The translations under genes and the position numbers were made by a program. Below, one piece after another: positions 4,248 through 21,652 of a stretch of DNA of 64,000 nt. Below the pieces are notes generated by a model, which saw nothing but the letters and a program-made list of their open reading frames with translations, ran no database searches and had not been told where the DNA came from. This DNA comes from Galbibacter pacificus (GTDB lineage Bacteria > Bacteroidota > Bacteroidia > Flavobacteriales > Flavobacteriaceae). How positions within the stretch are numbered: the stretch's first letter is position 1; every line of letters begins with the position of its first letter. The stretch is taken from assembly GCF_029603165.1 (NCBI RefSeq), contig NZ_JAQSVC010000005.1, forward strand, positions 124,001 to 188,000, read 5' to 3'.

Positions 4248-4976
4248 TTACCCGCGGGAAATATCTCCCGAACCGGATACTTTAGAATCTTCTTTTTCAG
4301 GGGATCCATAATAATCAACATCTCCTGATCCTGAGACCCTTGCTTTTAAAAAGCCGTCACAATATACATCAATATCTCCAGACCCCGAAATGGAAGCATC
4401 TACATTTGTGGCTTTTAATTCCTTGGCATGGATGTCGCCAGAGCCTGAAATTGCACATTCAAAATCGGTTGTTTTACCACTTAAACTTATGTCGCCAGAG
4501 CCTGTTAAATCGCTTTCTACGCTATTTGCCTCGACAATAACCTGTAAGTCGCCAGAACCTGTAAGGTTGGCTTCAAACTGGTCGGTTTTTATGGTGTTTT
4601 TTGTAACAATATCGCCCGATCCTGTTAACGAAACCGCATCGAGGCTTTCAAAAGGAACGGTTATTAAAATTTCTTTGTTGTGGCTTGGCCTTAAGTCGTA
4701 ACCCTCTTCGGTTTTAATTACAAGTTTGCTGCCCCTAACTTCGGTAACTATGTGCGGAATAAGGTTTTCTTCTGCCGAAATGGTTATTTTCCCTTCGTTT
4801 CCGGCAACAAGTTCAACATCAAAAAATCCTGCAACGTCTACTTCGGCATAATTAGAGGTATTTCTTTCCAATGTTTGAACATTTCCGTTCCCTTTTACCT
4901 TTTCGTTGCCAAACCATTGGGCATTGGCCGTTAAAGTAGCGGTTAGGGCCATACTAATTAAGATGAGTCTTTTCAT
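4248..4976 (-). CDS. Exported beta-helical 'head GIN' domain protein (DUF2807)
   Basis: The start MKRLILISMALTATLTANA is a clean signal peptide; upstream in-frame codons to 5033 are ignored because the signal begins here. The mature protein of about 220 residues contains a motif with the core GSGD recurring roughly every 17-20 residues (TGSGDIVTK, TGSGDLQV, TGSGDISLSG, SGSGDIHAK, SGSGDIDVY, SGSGDVDYY, SGSGDISRG). This is the signature of the DUF2807 right-handed beta-helix. The protein is exported and probably exposed at the cell surface or in the periplasm; no molecular function is known. It is the last gene of the minus-strand operon with the ECF sigma factor and anti-sigma-like gene, so it may be a target or part of the signalling unit. 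Confidence 0.85.
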   Translation of the reverse strand: MKRLILISMALTATLTANAQWFGNEKVKGNGNVQTLERNTSNYAEVDVAGFFDVELVAGNEGKITISAEENLIPHIVTEVRGSKLVIKTEEGYDLRPSHNKEILITVPFESLDAVSLTGSGDIVTKNTIKTDQFEANLTGSGDLQVIVEANSVESDLTGSGDISLSGKTTDFECAISGSGDIHAKELKATNVDASISGSGDIDVYCDGFLKARVSGSGDVDYYGSPEKEDSKVSGSGDISRG

Positions 4977-5039
4977 TTTATATGTTTTTAAGTTATTATT
5001 TTTTTTGAAGGATTGGTAGCTGGTTACCGTCAAAGGTTT

Positions 5040-6113
5040 TTATTTTTTATTAAGGCTCACACCCCCATATTCTGAGTTTATGTATACTTTGTTCTTTCCA
5101 CTGCTTCCGTGGTATCCTTGATAATATTTCTCGGTAGATTTGTCTCTTTTTATTTTATACTCAAAGTTGGTGTCACCACTTAGTCCGGCATATTCAAGGT
5201 CTATTTCAAAGTCAAAATGATACCCGCTGTTATAGCCTATTTTAATACCCGTATAATCGCTTTGTACGTTCAAGTTCCCGGCATCGGCGGCCATCTCGTC
5301 GATTTTTAACGAACCGTAATCCGAGCTTACATCAACATTGCCGTGCACGACCCCAAAATGTGTGGAAAGATAGTCGCCCGTACCTTTTATATTGTTGGCA
5401 TTTTCCAGTTTAATACTGCCATAGTCGCAGGAATATTCAATATTTCTGGCATTTTTTACTTCCGAAGTGGTATAATCGGCACTTATTACAAGATCTCTGG
5501 CATTTTCAACTTCATAACTTGAATAATCAGCATTTATTTTACCACTTTTTATATATTCAAAAGTAGATTTAGAAGTATAATCAAAGCTCAACTGGTTATT
5601 GTCGGCATTGAGTTTGCCAATTTCCATTTTACCATAATCGCAACTAATGTTGGCCAGGCCATTAATCTCGTCAAGGTAGATCCCGCCATAATCGTTATCC
5701 AGATCTACACTGTTCCCAACGGGCACCTTTATGGTATAGTTAATTTCCATGCTAATGTTGTTGTTGTTTCCCCAGCCCCAACCGTTTTTTTGAAAAATGG
5801 TCTTGGCAGAGACCACAGAGCTCGAAGCATGGAACTCCACGTCTATCTCGTCCAGTTTTCTTTGTGCTTTTTCCTCGCTGTTGCTATTGGTTTTTATGTG
5901 CACTTCTATAACGGTTCTGTTCTCGTTCCAGGAAGTAATATACAGGTTGCCGTAACTATTCTCGATATCCAAACGGGCCGTGGGGCTTACGGTAAATTCC
6001 TTCTTTATTTTTTTCTCTTTGGTGTACTTACCGTTCCATCCCGGTCCGGATGCACTGGCCCATAGCGGCAGGCAAATAAGCACACATACTAGTTTATATA
6101 ATCTGACTTTCAT
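5040..6113 (-). CDS. Exported beta-helical protein of the DUF4097/adhesin-like family
   Basis: 357 residues with a signal peptide (about 1-22, ending WASASG). The rest is a run of short beta-strand repeats in which DYG, DYT or DYS recurs about every 20 residues (ENSYGNLYI, DNDYGGIYLD, SCDYGKMEI, SADYTTSEV, SCDYGSIKL, SSDYGSLKI, QSDYTGIKI, NSEYGGVSL). This is the DUF4097-type beta-solenoid. Its start overlaps the end of the anti-sigma-like gene by 20 bases, showing translational coupling. No enzymatic residues are evident. It pairs with the next gene (GIN-domain protein), which has a related fold, suggesting that both are surface or periplasmic proteins governed by the sigma factor. Confidence 0.8.
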   Translation of the reverse strand: MKVRLYKLVCVLICLPLWASASGPGWNGKYTKEKKIKKEFTVSPTARLDIENSYGNLYITSWNENRTVIEVHIKTNSNSEEKAQRKLDEIDVEFHASSSVVSAKTIFQKNGWGWGNNNNISMEINYTIKVPVGNSVDLDNDYGGIYLDEINGLANISCDYGKMEIGKLNADNNQLSFDYTSKSTFEYIKSGKINADYSSYEVENARDLVISADYTTSEVKNARNIEYSCDYGSIKLENANNIKGTGDYLSTHFGVVHGNVDVSSDYGSLKIDEMAADAGNLNVQSDYTGIKIGYNSGYHFDFEIDLEYAGLSGDTNFEYKIKRDKSTEKYYQGYHGSSGKNKVYINSEYGGVSLNKK

Positions 6114-6660
6114 TGTTTGAGGTTTTTATTTGTTTAACTTCTTCTATTTGAGACAATACATCTTGCAATAAATTTATCCTTGTCTGGAAATTAATTATCA
6201 TGGCATTTAAAATTTGTTTGCTGTTGCCATCGTTCGCCAAATCGGTTTCCAACTCTTTATAATCGGTTTCCAGCTTTTTTATTTGAAGCATGGCATCGTC
6301 TATCATCTGTTTGGTCTCGGGTGTTGCCTCTGCTTGAATTTTTTCCATTTCTTCGTTAATCAAAGAAGAAAAGTAGAATTCGGTCTTTTCTATCTCGGTA
6401 GGTTCTTTTACGTGTTCCACTACAGGAGAAGGCTCATAAAAGAGTTTCGCCCCGATAGCCACCAAAATAGCCAGGGAAGCGGCAATAGAGAGTGCTTTCC
6501 ATACAAGGACCCGTGACTTCCTTTTAGGGAGCGCCACTACTTTTTGCTGTTTTTCCAGCTTGTTCAAAAAGCGTGCTTCGTGCCCTTTTTGGGGTTCTTC
6601 AACATCCCAATCGTTTTTCAGTTCATCAAAAAGATGTTCTATGTTGTCTTTAGGCTTCAT
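6094..6660 (-). CDS. Single-pass membrane anti-sigma-factor-like protein
   Basis: 188 residues. A charged cytoplasmic N-terminus (about 1-50, starting MKPKDNIEHLFDELKNDWDVEEP) is followed by one transmembrane helix (about 51-70, VWKALSIAASLAILVAIGAKLFY). The external part is acidic, helical and coiled-coil-like (about 85-175). It overlaps the ECF sigma gene upstream by 11 bases. A small protein with a cytoplasmic helix segment, one membrane span and an extracytoplasmic domain, coupled to an ECF sigma gene, is the usual anti-sigma layout. The sequence lacks the classical zinc-binding HxxxCxxC motif, so the role is inferred from architecture and position. Confidence 0.65.
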   Translation of the reverse strand: MKPKDNIEHLFDELKNDWDVEEPQKGHEARFLNKLEKQQKVVALPKRKSRVLVWKALSIAASLAILVAIGAKLFYEPSPVVEHVKEPTEIEKTEFYFSSLINEEMEKIQAEATPETKQMIDDAMLQIKKLETDYKELETDLANDGNSKQILNAMIINFQTRINLLQDVLSQIEEVKQIKTSNNESQII

Positions 6661-7213
6661 ATGGTTCTGCTTTTAATTTTTGTCTTAAGCTTTCTTTTGC
6701 CCTAGATACTGTGGTCCTGCAATTGGCATAACTCACGTTCATAATTGTACTTATTTCTTCATAATCGTATCCTTCTATTAAATGAAGGGTTAAAGCAATC
6801 CTGTAATTGTCCTTCAACATTTTCATGGTCTGCAACACTTTTTGAGCCTTAATGTTGGTAAACTCATGGTCAGGTTCAATTCCATTACTGTCTTCAACCC
6901 TATGTAAAACATCGTCCAGCGGCACAACACTGTTCCTTTGTTGTTTTCTGTAATGATGAATACTGTTGTTTATTACAATACGTTTTAACCATGCTCCAAA
7001 AGCAACTTCGCCCCTATACGTGTCAAGTTTCGTAAACGCGTTTAAAAACGATTCCTGCATTACGTCTTCTGCTTCAAAGGGGTCGTTTACAATCCTTACC
7101 GAAGTATTGTACATGGCCTTGTAATAACGGTTGTACAGCTCCATTTGTGCCGATTGCTCTCCTTCTTTGCAGCGTGCTAATAGTTGATCGGTATTTAACT
7201 TTTGTTGGCTCAA
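6650..7213 (-). CDS. ECF-type RNA polymerase sigma factor
   Basis: 187 residues with sigma-70 region 2 (about 25-95: YNRYYKAMYNTSVRIVNDP, AEDVMQESFLNAF, GAWLKRIVINNSIHHYRK) and region 4 (about 130-180: LIEGYDYEEISTIMN with the helix-turn-helix YANCRTTVSRAKESLRQKL). The apparent start is TTG at 7213; the next Met is inside region 2, so TTG is required. It heads an operon with the membrane protein and two exported beta-helical proteins. It would redirect RNA polymerase in response to an envelope signal, held inactive by the next gene product. The target promoters are unknown. Confidence 0.9.
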   Translation of the reverse strand: MSQQKLNTDQLLARCKEGEQSAQMELYNRYYKAMYNTSVRIVNDPFEAEDVMQESFLNAFTKLDTYRGEVAFGAWLKRIVINNSIHHYRKQQRNSVVPLDDVLHRVEDSNGIEPDHEFTNIKAQKVLQTMKMLKDNYRIALTLHLIEGYDYEEISTIMNVSYANCRTTVSRAKESLRQKLKAEPYEA

Positions 7214-7847: not shown

Positions 7848-8942
7848 TTAACGCATGGAAAATGTATTTAAGTTATAGGGTTTTAGTAACTCTGTTTCTT
7901 TCATCAGTTTTGGTTCGGCGTCCACATCGCGGAGGAATATTAAATCTTTTTCAAATTCATACATTTTATAGGAATAATCAAAGGTGGAGTCTTCTGTTAA
8001 AATTCTTATTATGTCCTCGCTAAAGTTTGCGCCCCCGGCCGCAAAAGACATGTTAAAGGCAACCATTCTTACGTTAATTTCGGTAATAAACGGAGTGCCG
8101 TTTTGGTCTTCTTTAAAATCGGCCGTAAAAAAACCGTGCAATTCCTGGCCTGTATGGATAGATATTAGTTCGAGCGCCTTTACAGAAGCGTCTATTAACT
8201 TAGGTTCGTTTAACAACCGCCCAAAAGAGGTATTGCCCGTAATGCCAGATGGCGCAACTTTGCTCATAATGTAATTTACACGTTCCCCGCAGGCAGCACG
8301 TAGCAGTTTTCCTTTATGGAATAGCAGCTTGCAGGCCAGATTTCTTCCCGGTAAAAAGGTACTTGCAATAAATTCGTTTACTTTAGGGTTAATGGTAATC
8401 CAGTTTTTAAGGCTGGCTTTGTCCTTTACCTTTAGGGAGCCCAAGCCGCTGGATCCAGAGGTAGAACGAATCCAGAACGGGTAGGGAAGTTGCTGTTCTA
8501 TGGCGCTATAATCTATATTAAGCGGGTCAATGGTTATAGAGGCGGGCACCACCCCAACCTTTTTAAGGATATTGGTCATTAAAGCCTTATCTATTAAGTT
8601 TTCTACAATGGCATGGTCGGGTAAAAAAACCTTACATGGCCAAATACCGCCTTCTTTTTTATATTTTGTCCATTCCAGTACCTCCATTTCGGGCTGTACT
8701 ATGGCAATTTCTATATCGTGTTTCTCGATAATGTTGTTAATTGCACTCCAATAGGCAGGATTTCCGGCAGGCGGTATTACATAGGTTTCATGGTACAGGT
8801 CTTTTTCATACAGGCCATGGGCCCGTGGGTTAATATCGGTACCGATAATAGTGTATTCCATGTTGCTGTAACGGTGAAGAGAACGGGCAATACTACGCGG
8901 CGTTGGCCCTCCAACTCCATTGATTAATACATTAATAGCCAT
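7848..8942 (-). CDS. ATP-grasp domain protein (carbamoyl-phosphate-synthase-like)
   Basis: 364 residues. The N-terminal Rossmann-like PreATP-grasp part has GVGGPTPRSIARSL (residues 9-22) and an INPRAHG segment. The ATP-grasp core follows, with WIRSTSGSSGLGSLKV (157-172) as the glycine-rich ATP loop and FITEINVRM (about 298-306) as the metal-binding strand. ATP-grasp enzymes of this build ligate a carboxylate to an amine, or make carbamoyl phosphate, and often occur in surface-polysaccharide clusters where they modify sugars with amino acids or amides. The next upstream gene, a sugar transferase ending 5 bases before this start, supports that setting. The substrate cannot be read from the sequence. 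Confidence 0.8.
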   Translation of the reverse strand: MAINVLINGVGGPTPRSIARSLHRYSNMEYTIIGTDINPRAHGLYEKDLYHETYVIPPAGNPAYWSAINNIIEKHDIEIAIVQPEMEVLEWTKYKKEGGIWPCKVFLPDHAIVENLIDKALMTNILKKVGVVPASITIDPLNIDYSAIEQQLPYPFWIRSTSGSSGLGSLKVKDKASLKNWITINPKVNEFIASTFLPGRNLACKLLFHKGKLLRAACGERVNYIMSKVAPSGITGNTSFGRLLNEPKLIDASVKALELISIHTGQELHGFFTADFKEDQNGTPFITEINVRMVAFNMSFAAGGANFSEDIIRILTEDSTFDYSYKMYEFEKDLIFLRDVDAEPKLMKETELLKPYNLNTFSMR

Positions 8943-8947
8943 ATTTT

Positions 8948-9553
8948 TTAGTTGTTACCGTTAAAAGGTTCCATGGGAATATCTTTTTGTTGATTGACCC
9001 CTTCTTTCTTTAGTACCTTTAACATAGTTAAATAAATAATTTTAGAATCCATTGCAAAGTTTAACCGGTTTACATAATGTATGTCGTATTCAAACTTTTG
9101 GTTCCACGAGATGGCATTCCTGCCATTTATTTGTGCCCAGCCAGTAATACCGGGCTTTACAGTGTGCCTTTGTTTTTGTGTATTATTGTAAAGGGGCAAA
9201 TATTTAATAAGCAGTGGGCGGGGGCCAATAAGGCTCATATCACCTTTAAGTACATTGAACAATTGGGGAATTTCGTCCAGGGAATATTTGCGTATAAAAC
9301 TGCCAAACTTGGTAATACGCTCGCTATAGGGCAATAGCTCGCCGTTGGTATCTGTTTTATCGGTCATGGACTTAAACTTGACAAGCTTGAATATTTTTTC
9401 GTCTTTTCCCGGTCGAAGTTGAAAGAAAAAAGGACGGCCATTAGTTACAAACAATAGTATAATGGTTATAACAATTATTACGGGCGACAAAAATATAAGT
9501 CCGAAGGCCGCCAACATAATATCCAAAAAGCGTTTAAAAAAGCTTTTGTACAT
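8948..9553 (-). CDS. Undecaprenyl-phosphate sugar phosphotransferase (bacterial sugar transferase, PglC/WcaJ type)
   Basis: I chose the start MYKSFFKRFLDIML at 9553 over the in-frame codon at 9589, because this family begins with a K-R-x-x-D segment just before the membrane helix. The 201-residue protein has one N-terminal re-entrant/transmembrane helix (about 13-37) and the catalytic core: FKLVKFKSM (55-63), the Asp-Glu dyad in SLDEIPQL (Asp93, Glu94), GDMSLIGPRPLL (104-115), and PGITGWAQINGRN. It transfers a sugar-1-phosphate from a UDP-sugar to undecaprenyl phosphate to begin a polysaccharide or glycan. It forms a two-gene unit with the ATP-grasp gene. No other glycosyltransferases of the pathway are adjacent, so this cluster is incomplete. 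Confidence 0.9.
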   Translation of the reverse strand: MYKSFFKRFLDIMLAAFGLIFLSPVIIVITIILLFVTNGRPFFFQLRPGKDEKIFKLVKFKSMTDKTDTNGELLPYSERITKFGSFIRKYSLDEIPQLFNVLKGDMSLIGPRPLLIKYLPLYNNTQKQRHTVKPGITGWAQINGRNAISWNQKFEYDIHYVNRLNFAMDSKIIYLTMLKVLKKEGVNQQKDIPMEPFNGNN

Positions 9554-9918
9554 AGTTGCAAATGTTTTGGTTGTTTGTGTTAATGACAAGGTAAAATTAG
9601 CTGAAAGGGAAAATAGAATAAAAATTGTTCTTTAAAAGGCAATAAATATCGCTAAAAGAAATTTTTGGATGCCAGGCTCATAAGTATTGGACTCTCATAG
9701 AGATATAAATCTTTACAGTTTAATATTGTTGTCTTAATACATTGTATTTCAACGAAGTAAATGGCTTCTTGTCGGAAGTTGTGTATTTGAAAGATTTTTC
9801 TTGTTCTTGATGGAATTTTAAAAAGACTAGCGCATGGAATAACTACTTTTACAAAGTATTCTTCCCCATATCCAGCCGTAATTTAATCTCATTATAAAAC
9901 AACCTAACGCTTAATAAA
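9554..9918. other. 365-base divergent intergenic region
   Basis: AT-rich, with no credible gene. It must hold the promoters for the sugar-transferase operon (leftward) and the FnIII-protein/tyrosinase operon (rightward). I see only imperfect -7 matches (for example TGTATTTG around 9783) and name none with confidence. Confidence 0.4.
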
Positions 9919-11742
9919 ATGAGACTGAAAATTACTTTTTTTATCCTTCTAATGAGTTTTTGTGGCCTAACAGCACAAAATTTACATACACAGGCTAATG
10001 CAGCTTCTATAACAAATGAAGCAGATGCAACAACAGGATGGACTGGAGGAGCCGTAATAACTTCTACGGCTACCGATGCCCAAAATGGAACCTATTCTTT
10101 ATTGATTTCATCATCTGGCGTTTCTTCAGGAAGAAATGGGGAATATACTTTTAATGTTGTAAACGGAGAAACCTACAATATTACCATTTGGGCAAAAAGG
10201 GCACCGCAAAGTTATTTGCCTGCCTTTGCAAACTGGTCTGGCTTTACAGGCTTTTCTACTACAAATATTACCAATCCCGATTGGGCACCTTACAATTTTA
10301 CCCTAACGGCAAATGCAAGCACGGCGACCATTAGGATATATACCAGCCCCAGTTACAGGGGAAATATATCAGGCGATGGCGTTTTAATCGATGCCGTAAA
10401 CATTACAACAGATGATCTTGACACGGAAGCCCCATCGGCGGTAGTGGATTTGGCAGCTTCGGGAACTACCGATACGGGCACGAACTTAAGCTGGACAGCC
10501 TCTACCGATAACGTAGCGGTAACCGATTATGAGGTTTTCCGTGACGGAACGAGCATTGGGTTAACGGGGGGTGCAACAAACTTTTCGGCAAGCGGTTTAA
10601 CGGCCTCGACAAGCTATGCCTTTACGGTATTTGCACATGACGCCGCCGGTAACACCTCTGCGGTTAGCAACACGGCAAACGTAACGACCAATGCACCTGC
10701 CGGGGACACGGAAGCCCCATCGGCGGTAGTAGATTTGGCAGCTTCGGGAACGACAGCCACAACCACGAACCTAAGCTGGACAGCCTCTACCGATAACGTA
10801 GCGGTAACCGATTACGAGGTTTTCCGTGACGGAACGAGCATAGGCCTAACGGGGGGTGCAACAAACTTTTCGGCAAGCGGTTTGACGGCCTCGACAAGCT
10901 ATGCCTTTACTGTATTTGCGCGTGACGCCGCCGGTAACACCTCTGCGGTTAGCAACACGGCAAACGTAACGACCAATGCACCTGCCGGGGACACGGAAGC
11001 CCCATCGGCGGTATCGGATTTGGCAGCTTCGGGAACGACAGCCACCACCACAAACCTAAGTTGGACAGCCTCAACCGATAACGTAGCGGTAACCGATTAT
11101 GAGGTTTTCCGTGACGGAACGAGCATTGGGCTAACGGGGGGTGCAACAAACTTTTCGGCAAGCGGTTTGACGGCCTCGACAAGCTATGCCTTTACAATAT
11201 TTGCACATGATGCCGCCGGGAACACCTCTGCGGTTAGCAACACGGCAAACGTAACGACTACTGCTGGAAGTGGAGGTGGCGTGACCCCATATACTACCGA
11301 GAACGCCAATTTGGATACCGTAGATTGGCAGGCCAATAATTTGTTTGCCAATGGAAACGTAGGCATTGGTACTTCGGCCACATTGGGTTATCGATTGGCT
11401 GTTGCAGGAAATATTGTTGCGGAAGAGGTTAGGGTAGCCTTGCAGGGAAACTGGCCTGATTATGTGTTTGAAGATGCATATACTTTGCCAAGTTTAGAAG
11501 AAGTAGAAAATCATATCAAAGAGAATAAGCATTTAATAAATATCCCAAGTGCTTCCGAAATTGAAAAAAACGGAATCGGATTGGGGGATATGGACGTCAA
11601 GCTACTTCGAAAGATTGAAGAACTTACGCTGTATACGCTTCAGCAGGAAAAGAAAATAAATGAACTTCAGGCCGAAAAGAATACGTTGAACGATTTATTG
11701 AAGCGTATTGAAAAAATAGAAAAAGAATTAAACAACCAATAA
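9919..11742 (+). CDS. Secreted protein with three FnIII repeats and a C-terminal coiled coil
   Basis: 607 residues. A signal peptide (1-19, ending CGLTAQ) precedes a carbohydrate-binding-like beta-sandwich domain (about 25-165, with GEYTFNVVNGETYNITIWAK). Three nearly identical fibronectin type III domains follow (about 170-455), each 95 residues with core NLSWTASTDN, TDYEVFRDG and TANVTT. Next comes a short linker, then a domain seen in Bacteroidota tail-fibre-like proteins (NGNVGIGTSA, YRLAVAGNIVAEEVRV). A coiled coil ends the chain (about 565-605, ELQAEKNTLNDLLKRIEKI). No T9SS sorting tail is visible. It precedes the tyrosinase gene by 10 bases and is probably co-transcribed, so it may be an extracellular matrix or substrate partner. 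The structural calls are firm; the role is unknown. Confidence 0.8.
   Translation: MRLKITFFILLMSFCGLTAQNLHTQANAASITNEADATTGWTGGAVITSTATDAQNGTYSLLISSSGVSSGRNGEYTFNVVNGETYNITIWAKRAPQSYLPAFANWSGFTGFSTTNITNPDWAPYNFTLTANASTATIRIYTSPSYRGNISGDGVLIDAVNITTDDLDTEAPSAVVDLAASGTTDTGTNLSWTASTDNVAVTDYEVFRDGTSIGLTGGATNFSASGLTASTSYAFTVFAHDAAGNTSAVSNTANVTTNAPAGDTEAPSAVVDLAASGTTATTTNLSWTASTDNVAVTDYEVFRDGTSIGLTGGATNFSASGLTASTSYAFTVFARDAAGNTSAVSNTANVTTNAPAGDTEAPSAVSDLAASGTTATTTNLSWTASTDNVAVTDYEVFRDGTSIGLTGGATNFSASGLTASTSYAFTIFAHDAAGNTSAVSNTANVTTTAGSGGGVTPYTTENANLDTVDWQANNLFANGNVGIGTSATLGYRLAVAGNIVAEEVRVALQGNWPDYVFEDAYTLPSLEEVENHIKENKHLINIPSASEIEKNGIGLGDMDVKLLRKIEELTLYTLQQEKKINELQAEKNTLNDLLKRIEKIEKELNNQ
10421..11275 (+). 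repeat. Three tandem 285-base repeats encoding FnIII domains
   Basis: Units begin at about 10421, 10706 and 10991 with an identical period of 285 bases (95 codons). They agree almost base for base, including the starting ACACGGAAGCCCCATCGGCG. Near-identity at silent positions indicates recent duplication or gene conversion, and the copy number could vary between strains. Confidence 0.9.
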
Positions 11743-11752
11743 GAGGTATAAA

Positions 11753-13150
11753 ATGGTACATGCAATGTTATTTTATAAAAAACTCTTGAAATCCATACCG
11801 CTTGTTGCAGTTGTTGTTTTTCTCTATCAAGGTAATTCACAGAGCATACGGAAGAATTATCAGGAAATGACGACTTATGAGAAGACAGAATTGGTAAATG
11901 CATTTTATCAACTTAGGGAAGGGGAGGACCGGATAACGGATATGTCTGATTTTCATATGAATTATTTTAATTTCGACAATATAGATCCCAACAGGCTCGA
12001 CATACATTTTAACTTGCCGGAAGAACCCGAAAAAGAAATATTTTTAGCGTGGCACAGGCGTTTTATTTTTGAAATGGAACAGGCCATGCAAGATATTAAT
12101 CCTAAGCTTACAATTCCGTATTGGGAGTCGTCTGTAGATCAATCTACAACATCGTCTCTTTGGGACGAAGATTTTATGGGGAGTTTTAATTCCAATTGGA
12201 ACTTAAACAGAAACCTTAGCAGTTTTGGAACCTTGCCCACACAACAGGAAGTAGACAATATGTTGGCAATGACCGACTTTTTTGAGTTTTCGGACTTTTT
12301 TGAGCGCCAACGGCCACATTCGGGAGCCCATAGATGGGTTGCAGGGCCCATGTTGACATCGGCTTCACCAAGGGATCCGGTTTTTTATCTTCACCATGCT
12401 TTCGTGGATAAACTTTGGCACGATTGGGAAGAAATGCACCATAGCTCATCGTATGTCCGTACAGACATGATACGTTACGATGGGACTTATGTTTTTGATG
12501 GGCAAACCATTCCGTTGGTAAATCCCAACGATATTGTTGATAGTAGGGCCTTGGGTGTTTTTTATGCTGAAGATGGTTTGGCCACGCTCGACAATTATAT
12601 TGTAAGCAATACGTATAATCCAGAGGAGCTTTTTTATTATCAGTACACCATAGAGGTCGGGAATAATTTTATAGCGCCCGAAAATACCACTTCTAAAATG
12701 GAATCCATAACCGAAGTGGTTTTAAAGCCTGGCTTTTTTGCAGAATCTGGGGCAAATTTTGTTGCAGCCATCGATACGGAAACTACTTCGTTATTGGCGG
12801 CAAGGTCCATGGTTAAAAAAGAAAGAAAGAAAAAGCCTTTTGACGATGTTCAACTGGACCAAGTCTGGCTATGGAGCGAAGGAGATATAGATCCCAACGA
12901 CCCAACTGTGGTAATGCAGACATTTCCAAACCCGTTTGATTCCAAGATTACCATCAAACTAAACAAAAAAAGGGATTGTGTCATTGAAATTTACAATATG
13001 ACAGGACAATTGATAAAACAGGAATTTTTCGAATTTACCAACACCTTGGAAATCAACAATCTTTTCGGACTGTCTTCAGGAACCTATTTTGTAAAAGTTT
13101 TGGGAGGTAATGGCGAAACGTTGGTAGTTAAAAAAGTAATTAAAATATAA
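11753..13150 (+). CDS. Secreted tyrosinase-family copper oxidase with T9SS type A sorting domain
   Basis: 465 residues. After a signal peptide (about 1-30) comes a type 3 copper tyrosinase domain. CuA ligands are His68 (SDFHMNYF), His85 (DIHFNL) and His101 (FLAWHRRFIFEME). CuB ligands are His189 and His193 (RPHSGAHRW) and His215 in DPVFYLHHAFVDKLW. All six ligands are present, so it should be active, oxidising monophenols and/or diphenols to quinones. The last 80 or so residues (from about 386: FPNPFDSKITIKL, YNMTGQLI, LSSGTYFVKV, VVKKVIKI) are a T9SS type A sorting domain, predicting export through the type IX system to the surface or medium. It follows the FnIII protein by 10 bases and is followed after 5 bases by a small exported protein. 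It converges on an HMA/TonB receptor pair that could supply copper. The specific substrate is unknown. Confidence 0.93.
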   Translation: MVHAMLFYKKLLKSIPLVAVVVFLYQGNSQSIRKNYQEMTTYEKTELVNAFYQLREGEDRITDMSDFHMNYFNFDNIDPNRLDIHFNLPEEPEKEIFLAWHRRFIFEMEQAMQDINPKLTIPYWESSVDQSTTSSLWDEDFMGSFNSNWNLNRNLSSFGTLPTQQEVDNMLAMTDFFEFSDFFERQRPHSGAHRWVAGPMLTSASPRDPVFYLHHAFVDKLWHDWEEMHHSSSYVRTDMIRYDGTYVFDGQTIPLVNPNDIVDSRALGVFYAEDGLATLDNYIVSNTYNPEELFYYQYTIEVGNNFIAPENTTSKMESITEVVLKPGFFAESGANFVAAIDTETTSLLAARSMVKKERKKKPFDDVQLDQVWLWSEGDIDPNDPTVVMQTFPNPFDSKITIKLNKKRDCVIEIYNMTGQLIKQEFFEFTNTLEINNLFGLSSGTYFVKVLGGNGETLVVKKVIKI

Positions 13151-13155
13151 GGTCG

Positions 13156-13494
13156 ATGCTCATATGGTATTGTTTTGCCGTTTTATGCTTTCAACAAGGG
13201 TTTTCGTTTAAGATCGTTAATAAAACACCCTATGCAATCACTAACATTAGGCTTTATGAATATGATATGCATATTGCCTTATCCCCAAATGAAGCATCAG
13301 CCGTAAAAACACTTTCACTTTCGCCAGAAAAAGCCGAAGGGTCTTCTGTCTTAATGCTCTTTGCCGAAAATACCAATTACGGTATTTATATTGAAAACCC
13401 CCAATCGGGCAAAAAATATACCTATGTTATAGACAGCATTCAGCCAAAAAGAAATAATATATTTATCAGTACTATTATTGAGGAGCAAAAGTAA
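13156..13494 (+). CDS. Small exported protein of unknown function, tyrosinase-linked
   Basis: 112 residues. A short N-terminal hydrophobic segment (about 1-17, MLIWYCFAVLCFQQGFS) looks like a signal sequence. The rest is a predicted beta-sandwich of about 95 residues (FKIVNKTPYAITNIRLYEYD, SVLMLFAENTNYGIYIE, KKYTYVIDSI, NNIFISTIIEE). I do not recognise a family. It starts 5 bases after the tyrosinase stop in the same direction, so it is almost certainly co-transcribed. Some tyrosinases need a small partner for copper loading or folding (MelC1 in Streptomyces), but there is no visible similarity and no copper-ligand cluster here, so that link is only a suggestion. Confidence 0.65.
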   Translation: MLIWYCFAVLCFQQGFSFKIVNKTPYAITNIRLYEYDMHIALSPNEASAVKTLSLSPEKAEGSSVLMLFAENTNYGIYIENPQSGKKYTYVIDSIQPKRNNIFISTIIEEQK

Positions 13495-13508
13495 AAAATA
13501 CCCATAAG

Positions 13509-13865
13509 CTATTTATGGTGTTCCATTTTAATGCTTTCGGGATCCCTGTACAGGCAACATGGCGGCAAGGAATTATAACTGTCATCGGCAGCTGTGTAAA
13601 GTTCTGTATCGTGGCCGGCATGGGCTATGGCTTTTTTAACATCGTCCAGATTGCATTTTCTTTCGTCCATAATAATGGTTAATTCTTTGTTGGGGATGTC
13701 CCAACTGGCATATTTAACACCTTTTACTTCAATGGCGGCTTTTTCAATACGTTTTTGGCACATGGCACAATTTCCGCTGACCGTAAAAACCTCTTTTTTG
13801 TTCTTGTCCTGTGCTGCCAAAGGAACGCTCATTACAATTGTCAGGATAATTATTAACTGTTTCAT
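13509..13865 (-). CDS. Exported heavy-metal-associated (HMA) domain protein, probable copper binder
   Basis: 118 residues with a signal peptide (1-19, SVPLAAQ). An HMA fold follows, whose metal site is GNCAMCQKRIEKAA (Cys33, Cys36), then VKGVKYASWDIPNKELTI. The C-terminus adds a Cys pair (LPPCCLYRD). HMA domains with CxxC bind Cu(I) or similar soft metals, and export places this one in the periplasm. It lies downstream of the TonB receptor on the same strand (46-base gap) in an arrangement that recurs in Bacteroidota, and it converges on the tyrosinase operon. Metal identity is not proven by sequence. Confidence 0.85.
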   Translation of the reverse strand: MKQLIIILTIVMSVPLAAQDKNKKEVFTVSGNCAMCQKRIEKAAIEVKGVKYASWDIPNKELTIIMDERKCNLDDVKKAIAHAGHDTELYTAADDSYNSLPPCCLYRDPESIKMEHHK

Positions 13866-13911
13866 GATTTTTTATATGAAGGTGAACTTGTATGGTTAAA
13901 TTTTTTATTTA

Positions 13912-16182
13912 TTATATTTTGAAACGCATACCAATGTAATAAATTCCCGATAGAATGGGCGCATAAGTAATTGTAGAATCAAAATATTCGCCAAAAGGAT
14001 CATTGCTGGCAACAATCGGGTTGTTTTGTGTGTAATTGTTTATGTTTTCTCCGCCAAGGTACAATTCAAATTTATTACTGAACACCCGCGTAATTTGTGC
14101 ATTTATTACACTATACGAAGGAGAAAATGCTTTAAGTTGATAGGGCAGGGGGTTGCTGGAGGTGTTTGGCAAACGCTGTGCACCTTGCCAATGCAAAGTA
14201 GCGTCGAACCGCCATTGTTTTCCCGTAGGCTGTTTTACGGTTTCAAAGTTTAAGTTGGCAAAAAAGCGGTGTTCGGGCTGTAAGGGCTTTTCAAGTTCCC
14301 CATTGTTGTAATGGGTTTTTACATTGTAATTTTTATACGTGGCCCTTACGGACAGGTTTTGGATAATCTCGTAGGTAAAATCAAACTGGAAACTATTTGC
14401 AAAACTATTTCCGTTGAGGTTATAAAAAGAAATTTCCCTTGGATTTTCCCAGTCAACTACAACTTGGTCGGTAAACCGCGTTTGATAGAAATCGGCCGAA
14501 AGAACCATGGTCCTATTCCATAAATAGAGCTTTTGTGTAAAGCTGATGCCATAATTCCATGCGGTTTCTGGAGACAGGCCATACGTATTTCCGTTGTTGT
14601 TTTCTATGTTGATTTGTCTGGAACTGGCAAAAAGCTGTTGGTTTTCGGCAAAAATATTAGCATTTCTTTTCCCCCTTCCTGCGGAAGCCCTTATGCTTGC
14701 TTTGTCCCATAAAGCATAACGTATATGAAGCCTAGGTGTAATAAAAGTATGTAACCTGTTATGGTTGTCTATCCTGAGCCCCGCTACTAGACTCAACTTA
14801 TCTAGGTTGTTGTATGTGTATTCAAAAAAAGCCCCGACCGAATTGTCCTTTCTGTCATAAATTTGCTGGTTGACCAGTTCGTTAAAAGCATCGTATGTAA
14901 AACTTATGCCCGTTTTGTACTTATGTTGTGTACTTCCAATAATGCTATTAAAAATGGCATTGGTATAAATAGACCGTTGTTGAATGTCGTAGGTATTAAA
15001 CCCGTAATAAGAGTTTTGGTCATGGTCGGTATATGCCATTTGTACCCCAAAACTTTGATACGGTAAATCGGGAAATACATATCCTATTTTAGACGATAGG
15101 TCCAATCGGCTGGTATTTACTTCGCTCCCCCAGGCATTTGTTGTAAATTTATCTTCTTTTGGCACAAAATCCAGTTCCCCGGTCTGTTTTTCATCTTTTA
15201 AATATTGTATGTTAAAAAAGCCAACCCAGCCATTTTCTGGATCGGTATATTGCCATCTGTTCATAAAATTAATCTGTCTAGCAAGTGGGGTGTCCAAAAA
15301 ATTATCTCCATTCTCATCAACTTTAGCAGTCCTTAAATTGCCATGAATATACAGTCCGGTAGCCAATTTATCGGTTACTTCCGTATTATAGCGGGAATTA
15401 AGCTCGAACCGGGCATAATTGTTTGCATATACATTTAGAAATAGGTTTTTGTCGGTAAAGGGTTTCACCAATTCAGAATTTATTTGCCCGGAAATACTTT
15501 CGTAGCCATTGAGAACACTGCCGGCCCCTTTGGTAATTTGTATGCTTTCTATCCAAGAGCCCGGTATAAACGAAAGACCATATATTTGAGACGCGCCCCT
15601 AATAGATGGCATGTTCTCTTGTGTAAACAACAAATACGGGCTATTAAGCCCCAACATTTGTATCTGTTTAGCCCCGGTAACGGCATCGGATATGTTTACA
15701 TCGACTGCGGGATTGGTTTCAAAACTTTCGGAGAGATTGCAACAGGCGGCCTTTAACATTTCCCTATTGTCTACCGTTACCACATTTTGAACTTCAAATA
15801 GCGAGCGTTGCAATGGGTTTACCCTTTCTTCAACAACTACGGCTTCCAGTGCAATTTCGGGAAAGAGTATAATTTTTCCAAGGTTTGGCCTATTTGCCAA
15901 AATGGTATCGTTTCTAAAATCGGTATAGCTTATTACAATCTTTTTTGAGGCCTTACTGTATGGAATGTTAAAATCACCATCGCTGTCCGTAATGGTAGAA
16001 ATATTATCGTTTAGCCAATGTATTTTGGCACCGCTTATCGGGAATAGTGTATTGTTATTATTGTTTGCATAAACAGTTCCTTTTATTTTTAATTGGGCAT
16101 TAACATTTTTGGAGCCTACAACTAAAAACAAAAAAAATAAAAACCTACCGAGAACAATTATTGTTGGTTGATGTTGTTTCAT
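13912..16182 (-). CDS. TonB-dependent outer-membrane receptor with Cys-Cys plug motif
   Basis: 756 residues. A signal peptide (1-29, NVNAQ) is followed by a carboxypeptidase-regulatory-like domain (about 31-115, IKGTVYANN, SGAKIHW). The plug (about 120-240) carries an unusual AACCNLSESFETNPAVDV segment (Cys147, Cys148), and a beta-barrel ends GIYYIGMRFKI. TonB receptors take up large or scarce ligands across the outer membrane. The version with this CC-containing plug paired with an HMA protein gene is typical of Bacteroidota metal loci and suggests a copper or copper-chelate ligand. There is no SusD partner, so polysaccharide import is unlikely. The adjacent secreted copper oxidase makes copper handling plausible. 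Confidence 0.88.
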   Translation of the reverse strand: MKQHQPTIIVLGRFLFFLFLVVGSKNVNAQLKIKGTVYANNNNNTLFPISGAKIHWLNDNISTITDSDGDFNIPYSKASKKIVISYTDFRNDTILANRPNLGKIILFPEIALEAVVVEERVNPLQRSLFEVQNVVTVDNREMLKAACCNLSESFETNPAVDVNISDAVTGAKQIQMLGLNSPYLLFTQENMPSIRGASQIYGLSFIPGSWIESIQITKGAGSVLNGYESISGQINSELVKPFTDKNLFLNVYANNYARFELNSRYNTEVTDKLATGLYIHGNLRTAKVDENGDNFLDTPLARQINFMNRWQYTDPENGWVGFFNIQYLKDEKQTGELDFVPKEDKFTTNAWGSEVNTSRLDLSSKIGYVFPDLPYQSFGVQMAYTDHDQNSYYGFNTYDIQQRSIYTNAIFNSIIGSTQHKYKTGISFTYDAFNELVNQQIYDRKDNSVGAFFEYTYNNLDKLSLVAGLRIDNHNRLHTFITPRLHIRYALWDKASIRASAGRGKRNANIFAENQQLFASSRQINIENNNGNTYGLSPETAWNYGISFTQKLYLWNRTMVLSADFYQTRFTDQVVVDWENPREISFYNLNGNSFANSFQFDFTYEIIQNLSVRATYKNYNVKTHYNNGELEKPLQPEHRFFANLNFETVKQPTGKQWRFDATLHWQGAQRLPNTSSNPLPYQLKAFSPSYSVINAQITRVFSNKFELYLGGENINNYTQNNPIVASNDPFGEYFDSTITYAPILSGIYYIGMRFKI

Positions 16183-16482: not shown

Positions 16483-17817
16483 ATGGGAATGATAAATAAG
16501 TTTCGAGAAAAATCTTTTTGGCTATTGGACCTACTTAAAGGGGCCAGCATAAAAAAACATTATGATGATATTGAATTCATCATGGAAAAATACAACAGCC
16601 CACAAGCAGCATATAGACGAAAGGAACTCTTGGAAGCTTTAATGGTACATGTAAAAAAAACAGTTCCCTATTACAAAAACATAACCAATTTAAACGAACT
16701 TAAAAACTTCCCCGTTGTAAACAAAAATATTATAAGGGATTATTTTGAAGAATTTAAGTCGGATGCCTATCACGACGAAAAACTTTATTCAAGGTACACA
16801 AGCGGATCTACAGGAACCCCTTTTAGAATATATTACAATAGGAACAAGAAAAATAGAAATACGGCCGATACACTCTATTTTGCCAATAGAAGCGGGTACA
16901 AAGTTGGTCAAAAATTAGTTTATATCCGGCATTGGGATCAATACAATAGTAAAGATACCCTGTCTTCATTTCTTCAAAATATTTTGATGCATCCGGTCTC
17001 CAAATTATCCGATAGCGATATTCAAGGCCTAATGGACAAAATAGCAGAAGACCCTTCGCCTAAAAGTATATTGGGCTATGCCTCGGCACTTACAACAATT
17101 TGCAATTATCTGGAAAGTAAGAAATCGCCACCTATAAATGCCAATGTAAAGTCGGTAATAGCAATGTCCGAATACCTAAGCGCAAAGTCTAAAGAACAAA
17201 TAAAATATTATTTTGGTGTGGAAGGCCTATCGAGGTACTCTAATGTTGAAAACGGTATTTTGGCGCAACAATTTCCCGGGGGGACTAATTTTCATATCAA
17301 TTGGGCGAGCTATTTTATTGAAATCCTTAAGCCCGATGAAGATGTTCCAGTGGCTCCAGGAAAACCGGGCAGGATTGTAGTGACCGACTTTTACAATTAC
17401 AGCATGCCATTAATTAGATACGATACCGGAGATATAGGTTGCATGGGCATTGAAGACAGCTTCAATGGAGCACCTTATTTAGAACGGATTGAAGGCAGGA
17501 AAATGGATATGATATACAATACCAAAGGGGAACTTATTACCTCGTATGTTACCTATCATTTATTGAAATACCCTAAAATCAAGCAGTTTCAGTTTATTCA
17601 GGAAAATTCAAATACTTATCTCTTCAAATTAAATGTATATGATGATTTTGACATGGAAACCGAGATGATTGATGAATTTAAAACACATTTGGGCGAAAGT
17701 GCCATTATAAAAGTAAAATATGTTAATGATATACCTTTACTGCTTTCCGGTAAGCGCAAATTGGTTATCAACAAAATGCTTGAAAAACAAAAAGGTGAAC
17801 ATGCCATAGACAAGTAA
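16483..17817 (+). CDS. CapK-like/phenylacetate--CoA ligase family adenylate-forming enzyme
   Basis: 444 residues of the ANL-related CapK branch. The AMP-binding P-loop is YTSGSTGTPFRIYYN (105-119). Later motifs include VTDFYNYSMPLIRYDTGDIG (the conserved YxTGD core) and LERIEGRKMDMIYN. Members in polysaccharide clusters are thought to activate a carboxylic acid for attachment to a sugar or lipid, not phenylacetate catabolism; no paa genes are present here. It stands alone on the plus strand, separated from the sugar transferase and ATP-grasp genes by the tyrosinase/TonB block, and may belong functionally with them. The substrate is unknown. Confidence 0.85.
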   Translation: MGMINKFREKSFWLLDLLKGASIKKHYDDIEFIMEKYNSPQAAYRRKELLEALMVHVKKTVPYYKNITNLNELKNFPVVNKNIIRDYFEEFKSDAYHDEKLYSRYTSGSTGTPFRIYYNRNKKNRNTADTLYFANRSGYKVGQKLVYIRHWDQYNSKDTLSSFLQNILMHPVSKLSDSDIQGLMDKIAEDPSPKSILGYASALTTICNYLESKKSPPINANVKSVIAMSEYLSAKSKEQIKYYFGVEGLSRYSNVENGILAQQFPGGTNFHINWASYFIEILKPDEDVPVAPGKPGRIVVTDFYNYSMPLIRYDTGDIGCMGIEDSFNGAPYLERIEGRKMDMIYNTKGELITSYVTYHLLKYPKIKQFQFIQENSNTYLFKLNVYDDFDMETEMIDEFKTHLGESAIIKVKYVNDIPLLLSGKRKLVINKMLEKQKGEHAIDK

Positions 17818-17878: not shown

Positions 17879-18601
17879 TTAGATGCTTAATTTTCCTGCG
17901 GCAACCTTGTCGACCATCCAGACTATGTTCCCCGATACCGGTTGGATAAGCTGGGAAGGGTACAAAGTACTGTTTCGTTCCCCTTCGATTACTTCGTAAA
18001 GTGCGTTTGTTTTTTTCTCCCCAAACACAATAAATACTATTTTACGGGCTTTGTTTATCAATGGTGCGGTAAGAGTTATCCTGTACATGTTTTGTGGAGC
18101 AAGATAATAAGCAGCTACCTTTTTTTCTTTTTCGTTTAGCACCTTTTGGTTGGGGAATAAAGAGGCCGTATGCCCATCGTCACCCATACCGAGCAATATT
18201 AAATCGAAAATATCGCCAAGTTCTAAATGATCTTCCAGAATGGCTTCGTATTCTTTTGCATAAGCTTCCGGTTCAATGTTTTTTTTCCACATAGGGAAAA
18301 TATGGTCGTTCGGGATCGGGAGATCGTTTAAAAAATCTTTAAAGGCAGCTCCTGCATTGCTTTTTTCATCGTCCAGCGGAACCCATCTTTCATCCCCCCA
18401 AAAAACGTACACCTTGCTCCAGTCAACTTGTTCTTTGTAAGCAGACGAAGCCAATAATTTGTACAAACCGGCCGGAGAGGAACCACCGGTAAGTGCCACG
18501 GTAAATTTATCCCGTTTGTCAATGGCTTCTTGAGCTTTCTCAATAAAGAGGTCGGCTGTTTGCTTGTTTAGAATATCTTTATTTTCAAATACTTGAATCA
18601 T
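17879..18601 (-). CDS. pgl: 6-Phosphogluconolactonase
   Basis: Hydrolyses 6-phosphogluconolactone in the oxidative pentose phosphate pathway. The 240-residue protein is of the DevB/SOL type: ALTGGSSPAGLYKLL (about 37-51), VYVFWGDERWVPLDDEKSN (64-82, including the catalytic-region DERWV), and LLGMGDDGHTASLFP (about 136-150). It follows zwf by 3 bases and closes the rpiB-gnd-zwf-pgl operon. Function is confident. Confidence 0.95.
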   Translation of the reverse strand: MIQVFENKDILNKQTADLFIEKAQEAIDKRDKFTVALTGGSSPAGLYKLLASSAYKEQVDWSKVYVFWGDERWVPLDDEKSNAGAAFKDFLNDLPIPNDHIFPMWKKNIEPEAYAKEYEAILEDHLELGDIFDLILLGMGDDGHTASLFPNQKVLNEKEKKVAAYYLAPQNMYRITLTAPLINKARKIVFIVFGEKKTNALYEVIEGERNSTLYPSQLIQPVSGNIVWMVDKVAAGKLSI

Positions 18602-18604
18602 TTG

Positions 18605-20119
18605 TTATTTTTTTTCTGTTGAATGTTTATTTACGGCCCAGACATGTCCCTGCCGGGCAATAAGTGCTTCCGCAGTTTCGGGGCCCCAACTTCCTGCCTG
18701 ATAATTTGGAAAATCTATGGAATCCCTATTTTCCCATGCGTCGAGAATTGTTGAAATTACATCCCAGGCTTCTTCAATTTGGTCCGATCTCATAAACAGG
18801 GTTGTATCTCCAAGCATGGCATCCAGGAGCAGGGTCTCGTATGCTTCGGGGGTTTGCGTAGAGCAGTTATCGTAATTAAAAATCATTTCAGAAGGGTTGA
18901 GGTTCATTTCCAATCCGGGGCGCTTGGTCATAAAGCGCAATAATATGTCCATTTGTGGCTGGATATTGATGGTCAACCTATTTGGCATGATACTATCGGT
19001 CTGCGTTGCCGGAAACGAAGCGTGCGGCACGGGTCGGAATTGAATGGTTATGGAAGAAGTTTTTTCCTGCATGCGTTTTCCGGTCCTTAAATAGAAAGGC
19101 ACATTTTGCCACCGCCAATTGTCTAAATAAAACTTGATTGCGGCAAAGGTTTCGGTGTTGGAACTTTTACTAACTCCTTTTTCTTCACGGTATCCAGGTA
19201 CTTTCTCGCCTTCAATCCATCCATCCGAATATTGCCCCCTTACGGCATAATGATGCACTTCTTCTGGTTTTATGCGCCGTATTGCTTTAAGTACATCGTA
19301 TTTTCGGCTTCGTATTTCTTCAGCATCAAAAGAGGCTGGCGGTTCCATGGCTACCATGCACAAAATTTGCAGTAAATGGTTCTGGATCATGTCGCGCAAT
19401 GCACCAGCACCTTCATAATAGCCACCGCGGTCTTCAACGCCCACTTTTTCGGCAACGGTTATCTGTACCGAATCGATATAGTTTCTGTTCCAAAGTGGCT
19501 CAAAAAGTGTATTTGCAAACCGGAAGGCAAGAATATTCTGAACGGTCTCCTTGCCCAAATAATGGTCTATTCTAAAAATTTGCTCTTCATGAAAAGTTTT
19601 GGTAAGCATTTTATTGAGCTCAACGGCCGATTCTTTGTTGTAACCAAAAGGTTTTTCAATAATTATCCTGTCTTTTGATTTATCGGTTGCAAGTCCGGAA
19701 TTTTTTATGTTGACTGTTAATGGCTCGATAAAACGTGGGGAAACCGATAGGTAAAACAGCCTATTGGCACGAACTTCCCATTTATTATCATAATCTTCAA
19801 TTTTTTTAAGAAGCTCTTTATAGTCGTTTTCATCGTTTATGTTGGATGGGAAATAGTGCAACGACTCCTTAAAAATATTCCATTTTTTAGGATCTGGTTC
19901 GCCGCTTCTGGAAAATTCCTTTAATCCTTCGTGTAGGTTTTCACGATATTGATCGTCGGTAAGTTCTGTTCTTCCCAACCCATAGATAGCAAAATTTTCT
20001 GGCATCCAGTTTTCATTGAACAAATTGTAGAATGCTGGAATTAACTTTCTTTTTGCAAGATCTCCGGTACCGCCAAAAATAACAATAACTGTGGGAGATG
20101 CCTTTTTATTCGTTTTCAT
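18605..20119 (-). CDS. zwf: Glucose-6-phosphate 1-dehydrogenase
   Basis: Oxidises glucose-6-phosphate with NAD(P)+ as the entry to the oxidative pentose phosphate pathway. The 504-residue protein has the N-terminal dinucleotide motif [13 protein letters not shown] (14-26) and the active-site signature [13 protein letters not shown] (about 197-209), whose His acts as the base in the family. The EKPFGY segment occurs about 40 residues earlier. Length is normal. It lies between gnd (121-base gap) and pgl (3-base gap). Confidence 0.97.
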
Positions 20120-20240
20120 GGTTTTTTTATTTTGTATATCGGTCGGGCCTGCCCATTTGGTTCAGGCGGTTGGAATTTGCCACAAATTTTATTGAATATT
20201 GCCAATTTATTTATGGAGGCCCCTTTTTATTTTTTATGAA

Positions 20241-21650: not shown

Positions 21651-21652
21651 AG

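Follow-up and report, generated by a model that had tools for sequence, protein, structure and literature searches.

The locus analysed here occupies positions 9919-16182 of a 64,000-nucleotide stretch, the window, from the genome of Galbibacter pacificus (Flavobacteriaceae). An earlier note on this DNA had placed five genes there, and all five are open frames at the coordinates and on the strands that it gave. On the plus strand, ORF1 (9919..11742) codes for a secreted protein with a domain resembling carbohydrate-binding modules (CBMs) of families 4/9, three FN3 repeats and a coiled-coil tail; TYR (11753..13150) for a tyrosinase, a type-3 copper oxidase, bearing a type-A sorting tail of the type IX secretion system (T9SS); and ORF3 (13156..13494) for an exported 112-aa protein, a candidate tyrosinase partner judging by hidden Markov model (HMM) matches, an AlphaFold2 model and co-occurrence. 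Converging on them from the minus strand are the genes for an exported heavy-metal-associated (HMA) protein (13509..13865) and for a TonB-dependent receptor (TBDR; 13912..16182) with a Cys-Cys motif in its plug. The plus-strand genes (9919-13494) probably form an operon, as the earlier note had held, because the intergenic gaps are only 10 and 5 bases; a pattern search of the two flanking gaps for flavobacterial -33/-7 promoters gave no match.

TYR matches the Pfam Tyrosinase family (PF00264) at 89.8 bits against a cut-off of 22.6, and the sorting domain Por_Secre_tail (PF18962) at 48.3 bits against 27, with the NCBIfam model TIGR04183 likewise above its cut-off; its signal peptide was read by eye. 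With the sorting domain in place and the T9SS core components SprA and GldM found in the window genome, TYR is a predicted type-A T9SS cargo. A scan of 84,980 species genomes for TYR gave 190 encoding stretches, of which the best 80 were kept; the hosts of the TYR clade among these include Galbibacter, Arenibacter, Allomuricauda/Flagellimonas, Zhouia, Mangrovimonas, Pricia, Muriicola and others. Our sample of this clade consists of 56 loci: L076-L125 (50 loci, the TYRs of L115 and L116 being identical) and six from other genomes; L098, L113 and L120 come from metagenome-assembled genomes (MAGs). The six copper-ligand histidines (H68, H85, H101, H189, H193 and H215) are kept in all 56 aligned loci, the window included, and equally invariant are E184, which we take to be the water-keeper position, and H214, the histidine preceding the last copper ligand. 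The description of a tyrosinase with six copper histidines and a T9SS tail is thus borne out on both counts.

Clustering of the neighbours across the 56 loci recovers the ORF1 family in 51, a family of PaaK-like ligases in 39, ORF3 in 36, a sugar transferase in 35, the TBDR in 31 and the HMA protein in 29. For co-occurrence we used 299 genomes of the family, 16 of which have TYR at E<=1e-10; G062, where only the sorting tail matched, was dropped, leaving 15 TYR genomes. In Fisher tests, which ignore relatedness, the association with TYR has p-values of 5e-21 for the N-terminal domain of ORF1, 2e-15 for ORF3 and 2e-10 for the ligase.

Other tyrosinases of the phylum were seen in further settings. 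A second, far larger tyrosinase-domain protein is convergent to the T9SS tyrosinase at L040:5906-8704 (932 aa, with a weak VWA match) and L042:10260-13313 (1017 aa), in genomes G289 and G080. Two distant Bacteroidota tyrosinases (L126:5476-6228 and L127:2599-3486) are preceded by a protein with a match to the ORF1 tail, and have no ORF3, HMA or TBDR match nearby; a third, at L136, has none of the four.

A receptor lineage tied to the tyrosinase

The HMA protein scores 31.7 bits with PF00403 (cut-off 24.8) and carries the metal motif GNCAMC together with CC and MEHH close to its C-terminus; this profile and the sequences of its relatives make it a likely periplasmic copper carrier. The receptor has Pfam matches to barrel (74 bits) and plug (38 bits). 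All 65 homologues compared share its Cys147-Cys148 pair, H280 and H387, and 64 have M176 and H486, so that the convergent HMA protein and Cys-Cys receptor of the earlier note stand as described.

As gene families these two are no preserve of the tyrosinase. The receptor count, drawn from 149 of the family genomes, finds the TBDR family (E<=1e-100) in 93, mostly without a tyrosinase, and the HMA gene adjoins the receptor gene in 28 of the 30 best-scoring receptor loci, the window included. Taken by itself the pair is thus a common flavobacterial operon, and these widespread core copies rule out a pair specific to TYR. A P-type ATPase family accompanies it in 6 of the 30 loci, a MauE-plus-HMA protein in 11 and a heavy-metal-binding protein at L113; the core operon is likely to be a family-wide metal-uptake operon. 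At L229:7559-11382 it comprises genes for a small Cys-rich protein, the TonB receptor, the HMA protein and an HMA-plus-membrane protein. The window copy shares with it the gene pair, the Cys-Cys plug and the HMA motif; the two differ in that core copies often stand with a Cys-rich protein of 136-148 aa, the MauE-plus-HMA protein or the P-type ATPase, and the clade of the window with TYR.

The bond with the tyrosinase becomes visible at the level of the lineage. In a tree of 65 receptors, 29 TYR-linked copies and one from G. marinus form a single clade with an SH-aLRT support of 100, apart from the core copies; the window receptor falls within it and 29 of its 30 members adjoin TYR. A tree of 83 receptors leaves the clade unchanged, again at 100 (these, like the ligase tree below, are quick trees with no bootstrap, the 83-row one under a simpler model). 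The G. marinus receptor lies apart from TYR, still beside a PaaK-like gene, and this looks like a split cluster. The linked receptors of L113 and L120 fall instead inside the core clade, beside that of G113, a genome in which TYR and receptor are far apart. Gene order separates the two groups as well: at L113 and L120 all genes run on one strand as TBDR-TYR-ORF3-HMA, i.e., TYR-ORF3 within the core operon, with an exosortase-like gene before (25.6 bits, just below cut-off) and the heavy-metal-binding protein gene after at L113. The HMA-TBDR pair of Arenibacter and Allomuricauda sits between TYR and ORF3 on the opposite strand (TYR> <HMA <TBDR ORF3>), and that of three Galbibacter loci follows ORF3 (TYR>ORF3> <HMA <TBDR).

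An approximately unbiased (AU) test on the quick tree rejects a single origin of linkage (p-AU 4e-109 for the linked rows by themselves, 0.008 once the G. marinus copy is included), and hence the TYR-receptor linkage arose at least twice. The TYR tree mirrors the two receptor groups, with G. marinus and Galbibacter EGI 63066 standing unlinked in the first. In one case the HMA-receptor pair joined a tyrosinase locus, and in the other TYR-ORF3 came to lie within a core receptor-HMA operon. Moreover, the linked copy is commonly an addition to the core one: a second receptor is present in 17 of 22 linked-clade genomes searched whole, the other five carrying the linked copy alone, and in two of five from another search. 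The 17 second copies and one from the L120 genome all fall in the core clade of the 83-row tree, and the two from the other search in the core clade of the 65-row tree.

The MAG locus L098 offers a further glimpse of how such linkages may spread. Here TYR-HMA-TBDR-ORF3 lies between gpsA (identified by eye) and a 260-bp copy of the gpsA 3' end with 97.3% identity (9547-9806 and 14701-14960); the duplication encloses no other listed frame of >=80 aa. Such flanks are a mark of insertion, and it seems that all four genes were transferred together. A megablast search found no such flanking direct repeats of >=60 bp in the remaining 55 loci, a few of them possibly too truncated to show one.

Plain coincidence of neighbours is ruled out by this recurrence and the two origins, and the association is no accident of the window. 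The earlier note had named, as evidence that would refute its view, relatives carrying the HMA-TonB pair without the tyrosinase and in unrelated places. Such relatives are plentiful, yet they mislead as a test because paralogues had not been foreseen: the pair is common, whereas the window copy belongs to a tyrosinase-dedicated lineage.

Exported partners and a surface-polysaccharide setting

The earlier note had described ORF1 (607 aa) as a secreted FnIII/coiled-coil protein. Three fn3 domains are indeed found by Pfam, and signal peptide and C-terminal coiled-coil tail can be read by eye; the N-terminal domain had been overlooked, and no T9SS tail was detected. This domain matches CBM_4_9 (PF02018) at 30.2 bits against a cut-off of 25.9, and of 38 relatives 26 match the family as well (E<=0.1). 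A profile search against the PDB finds the CBM4-2 structure 1k42 (E 2.5e-7), and the AlphaFold model (pLDDT 93.2) finds CBM4-2 4bj0 through Foldseek (E 8.7e-7), with resemblance to CBM16 and CBM22 folds besides. By profile and modelled fold it is hence a CBM4/9-type module, predicted to bind sugars. It occurs in 16 of the 299 genomes: 14 of the 15 TYR genomes (in G245 on a different contig from TYR) and 2 of the 284 others. One relative in a genome without this tyrosinase (L227:7721-8653 in G026) lies upstream of two very large frames. With 18 Tyr in 607 residues, ORF1 is not strikingly Tyr-rich; it makes no obvious crosslinking substrate, and a carbohydrate-binding scaffold is the probable role.

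Neither Pfam nor NCBIfam assigns ORF3 to a family at E<=0.01, in keeping with the earlier view of it as a small exported protein of no known family. Its AlphaFold2 model (pLDDT 89.9) is a beta-sandwich, for which Foldseek gives a Bacteroides adhesion protein as best match (E 1.7e-3) and a second structural aligner Z-scores of up to 11 to PepT ectodomains, with fimbrial and transthyretin-like folds at 7 to 8.6; the modelled arrangement is a common one, uninformative on function. Its distribution says more. As a single-sequence query it matches 8 of the 299 genomes, every one with TYR. A profile matches 17, with E<1e-20 in 10 of the 15 TYR genomes, always at the TYR locus, and in none of the 284 others, this profile having been built from TYR loci and being biased towards them. 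Within the 56-locus sample the HMM matches at 37, where ORF3 adjoins TYR or lies one gene pair away. The notion of a wholly TYR-specific family is weakened by profile relatives at E 5e-4 to 5e-10 in seven TYR-less genomes; G245, a TYR genome, has a second weak relative too. Among seven weak relatives inspected (that of G067 was left out), four are small lipoprotein-like proteins (L199, L200, L201 and L204), two are membrane-like with 203 aa (L202 and L203) and one is a short frame (L205). The lipoprotein-like ones at L200:7125-7502, L201:7086-7469 and L204:7141-7548 lie in unrelated places in Flavobacteriaceae, and together with ORF3 they possibly form an unnamed superfamily.

Two more genes recur beside TYR and fall outside the bounds of the earlier note, which had placed its five genes correctly. 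On one side (16483..17817, plus strand) lies the PaaK-like AMP-forming ligase. Its NCBIfam matches are of the PaaK/FlxY/BagE type and all below cut-offs (TIGR02155: 55.3 bits against 646.3), and it matches a phenylacetate-CoA ligase in the PDB at E 3e-11. At E<=1e-60 the ligase is present in 44 of the 299 genomes, including 13 of the 15 TYR genomes. In a tree that sets ligases of TYR loci against those of 20 regions picked from 31 non-TYR genomes, 42 of the 55 TYR-locus ligases and that of G. marinus form a clade of 43 with modest support (SH-aLRT 81); none of the 21 non-TYR ligases falls inside it, and the other 13 TYR-locus ligases lie elsewhere. On the other side (8948..9589, minus strand) is an initiating sugar-phosphate transferase of polysaccharide synthesis (PF02397, 202.8 bits), with its family in 35 of the 56 loci and within 6 kb of TYR in 23. 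Both window genes belong to the recurrent clusters. A mixed family of about 380 aa, glycosyltransferases by eye, recurs at 30 loci with 11 members within 6 kb, and families named after L084 members as PglD-like and ATP-grasp at 19 and 18, respectively. Thus, the site of TYR is typically a surface-polysaccharide locus with a PaaK-like ligase clade of its own.

Further neighbours may be noted briefly. The window's own ATP-grasp protein (7848-8942), of a carbamoyl-phosphate-synthase-like type, is not part of the conserved set, its cluster spanning two of the 56 loci and differing from the 18-locus family. Lipoprotein-like proteins of 600-680 aa recur by the tyrosinase or the ligase (L084:17004-19034, L030:16072-17994 and L226:12058-13962); the single one scanned, from L084, has no Pfam match. 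Directly after the ligase, at 17879-21656, come pentose-phosphate genes, identified by eye as those for 6-phosphogluconolactonase, glucose-6-phosphate dehydrogenase and 6-phosphogluconate dehydrogenase, so that few polysaccharide genes lie on that side. At 4248-7213 the minus strand appears, by eye, to code for an extracytoplasmic-function (ECF) sigma factor with its membrane partner and for two exported proteins rich in repeats.

Proposed mechanism and competing explanations

We propose, with a probability of roughly 0.6, that this locus produces a type-3 copper oxidase for the cell surface, provides it with a copper supply of its own and lets it act on a carbohydrate matrix. Proteins that travel by Sec reach the periplasm unfolded, and the T9SS exports its cargo folded; hence, a T9SS tyrosinase must acquire its copper either within the periplasm or outside the cell. 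Loading in the periplasm would fit the presence, beside the enzyme gene, of genes for a receptor that may raise copper levels there and for an exported HMA carrier. The receptor would raise periplasmic copper and the HMA protein hold it there; the apo-tyrosinase, exported by Sec, would be metallated in that compartment, with ORF3 helping its folding or copper loading, or keeping it inactive or shielded; and the folded enzyme would exit via the T9SS to the cell surface. There it might oxidise phenols, whether algal or borne by the organism's own polysaccharide, to quinones, the CBM-FN3 protein confining the reaction to a carbohydrate matrix with crosslinking or pigment as the outcome. It is the CBM scaffold, the ligase clade and the sugar transferase that suggest this matrix as the site of action; substrate and role, whether in pigment or in crosslinking, are likewise inferred.

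Several observations weigh against this proposal. A receptor of this family at E<=1e-60 is lacking from 6 of the 15 TYR genomes and from 3 of 27 genomes in another search (EGI 63066, Zhouia and Muriicola), so that the receptor is not essential for having TYR and the claim that TYR always needs the HMA-TBDR pair is ruled out. Twenty-five of the 56 loci have no flanking receptor, just three of them (L106, L110 and L125) with <1.3 kb downstream of TYR. Everywhere except at L113 and L120 the linked receptor and TYR lie on opposite strands, which makes their co-expression uncertain. Copper is a putative ligand of the receptor, suggested by the HMA, P-type ATPase and heavy-metal neighbours and by the conserved Cys, His and Met residues: phmmer found no PDB match to the receptor at E<=0.01, and it lacks the CxxxM spacing of OprC. 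ORF3 has no match at 19 of the 56 loci, and its alignment has no conserved His, Met or Cys. At L113, L120 and L098 neither the ligase nor ORF1 is found in the flanks, so the polysaccharide link is not universal. Finally, monophenolase activity of TYR is uncertain, the residue at HisB1+1 being R in 27 loci, A in 12, S in 7, T in 6 and N in 2 (54 of the 56); this position strongly affects tyrosinase activity and does not by itself define substrate class (PMC11608171).

The alternative that survives best, one we regard as possible and on balance doubtful, keeps the secreted oxidase and drops the organism's own polysaccharide: TYR would detoxify algal phenols or turn them into brown pigment. Many Flavobacteriaceae live on algae, the named hosts are largely of this family, and a CBM could dock the partner protein on algal glycans; L113, L120 and L098, moreover, manage without a nearby ligase. 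Against it speak the frequent biosynthetic sugar genes and the TYR-side ligase clade. These same genes lead to a bolder version of the proposed copper-supplied matrix oxidase, a quinone-tanning system, which we hold to be rather doubtful in this full form: ligase and sugar transferase would make a phenol-bearing polysaccharide, the CBM-FN3 protein would organise it, the tyrosinase would crosslink it, and a private copper line of TonB receptor, HMA protein and ORF3 would metallate the enzyme in the periplasm before its folded export. The bagremycin and ferroverdin loci likewise combine a tyrosinase-fold oxidase (BagH/FevF) with a PaaK-like ligase (BagE/FevW), and the window TYR and ligase match these models with scores far below the curated cut-offs; the difference is that here the oxidase is predicted to be exported and is set in a polysaccharide locus.

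It is unlikely, in our view, that the HMA-TonB pair is copper housekeeping that landed in a variable polysaccharide locus, with the tyrosinase independent of it. Polysaccharide loci are prone to recombination, most sampled members of the family have the pair as a core operon, and the 6 TYR genomes lacking the receptor would be expected. Yet mere hitch-hiking sits poorly with a linkage that arose twice independently, once by entry into the copper operon and once by departure from it, with the matching groupings of TYR and TBDR, with the retention of the linked copy alongside the core copy in 17 of 22 genomes, and with 29 of 30 clade members still being linked.

In its logic, the nearest known system appears to be MelC1/MelC2 of Streptomyces, in which a type-3 copper oxidase likewise shares its operon with a small, beta-rich exported partner and has to be loaded with copper before export. 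There the gene of the caddie precedes that of the tyrosinase, the caddie loads the copper and export is by the Tat route in some cases (PMC9454253); MelC1 itself belongs to Pfam PF06236 (PMC11608171). This raises the alternative that ORF3 acts as a chaperone of the caddie kind, carrying copper or inserting it in the way known from MelC1 and MelC2, with the receptor pair just setting the copper level. A small exported partner at 37 of 56 loci, with strong matches solely in TYR genomes, is what it would predict, and a beta-rich caddie is known for MelC2 (PMC9454253). Nevertheless, we deem it improbable: ORF3 lacks conserved His, Met and Cys, goes unmatched at 19 loci, has as its top folds fimbrial, PepT-ectodomain and transthyretin-like sandwiches, and its weak relatives elsewhere show no copper genes nearby by eye. 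An identity with MelC1 is unsupported, in that there is no Pfam or NCBIfam match and no caddie among the fold matches listed, an absence that does not exclude MelC1. Further, ORF3 follows TYR here, and the enzyme has a T9SS tail with an outer-membrane receptor and an HMA protein attached.

The nearest receptors in function are, by analogy, OprC and CrtA. Like OprC/NosA, the window receptor is predicted to be a TonB-dependent barrel with plug cysteines and conserved histidines, here with a copper role inferred. It is not OprC, whose motif is CxxxM-HxM (PMC8610252), as it lacks a PDB match and the CxxxM: its invariant Cys-Cys is followed by NLSE, with no Met at +4 from either Cys, and it is accompanied by a tyrosinase and an HMA protein. 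An OprC-like transporter with CxxxM-HxM has been proposed in the flavobacterium Bizionia (PMC11213822). CrtA is a TonB-dependent transporter that feeds respiratory oxidases and is thus dedicated to one class of cuproenzymes (PMC12914433), a likeness drawn from its description, not its sequence; as described, it is mostly beta- and gamma-proteobacterial and serves respiration, whereas the window receptor is from Bacteroidota and apparently serves an exported tyrosinase. That CrtA is reported to import chelated copper (PMC12914433), and that the outer membrane or surface is where one would expect both TYR and the receptor, could suggest a reverse flow in which tyrosinase-made catechols or quinones bind extracellular copper and the receptor imports the chelates, the enzyme serving copper acquisition, but the persistence of TYR in receptor-less genomes and the matrix role suggested by its CBM, ligase and sugar-transferase partners make this very unlikely.

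No description of this combination of genes appears among the literature matches listed, in line with the earlier note, which knew of no described system so composed: among them, nothing links a Bacteroidota tyrosinase to a TonB receptor or to the T9SS, and the one paper listed for tyrosinase with T9SS concerns surface display for drug delivery. The earlier note was right in outline, and overall its picture is partly supported.

In broader terms, the copper supply of secreted Gram-negative cuproenzymes is poorly known, and here an outer-membrane, probably copper-handling receptor has apparently been tied twice to one exported enzyme. The recurrence of TYR, in some marine bacteria, beside probable copper-uptake genes and genes for sugar coats suggests that an enzyme which would harden or colour the outer matrix has copper supplied specially to it, and named isolates carrying both a core and a dedicated receptor copy make this question directly testable; Arenibacter palladensis and Flagellimonas hadalis, for instance, have two receptors each. 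Likewise, ORF3, the CBM-FN3 protein and the TYR-side ligase provide a family-wide handle on the maturation and the matrix of T9SS tyrosinases. Should the matrix prove to be phenolic, it would represent a bacterial polysaccharide material of a new class; and quinone-tanning, if true, would give prokaryotes a counterpart to catechol-based adhesives and the sclerotised cuticle.

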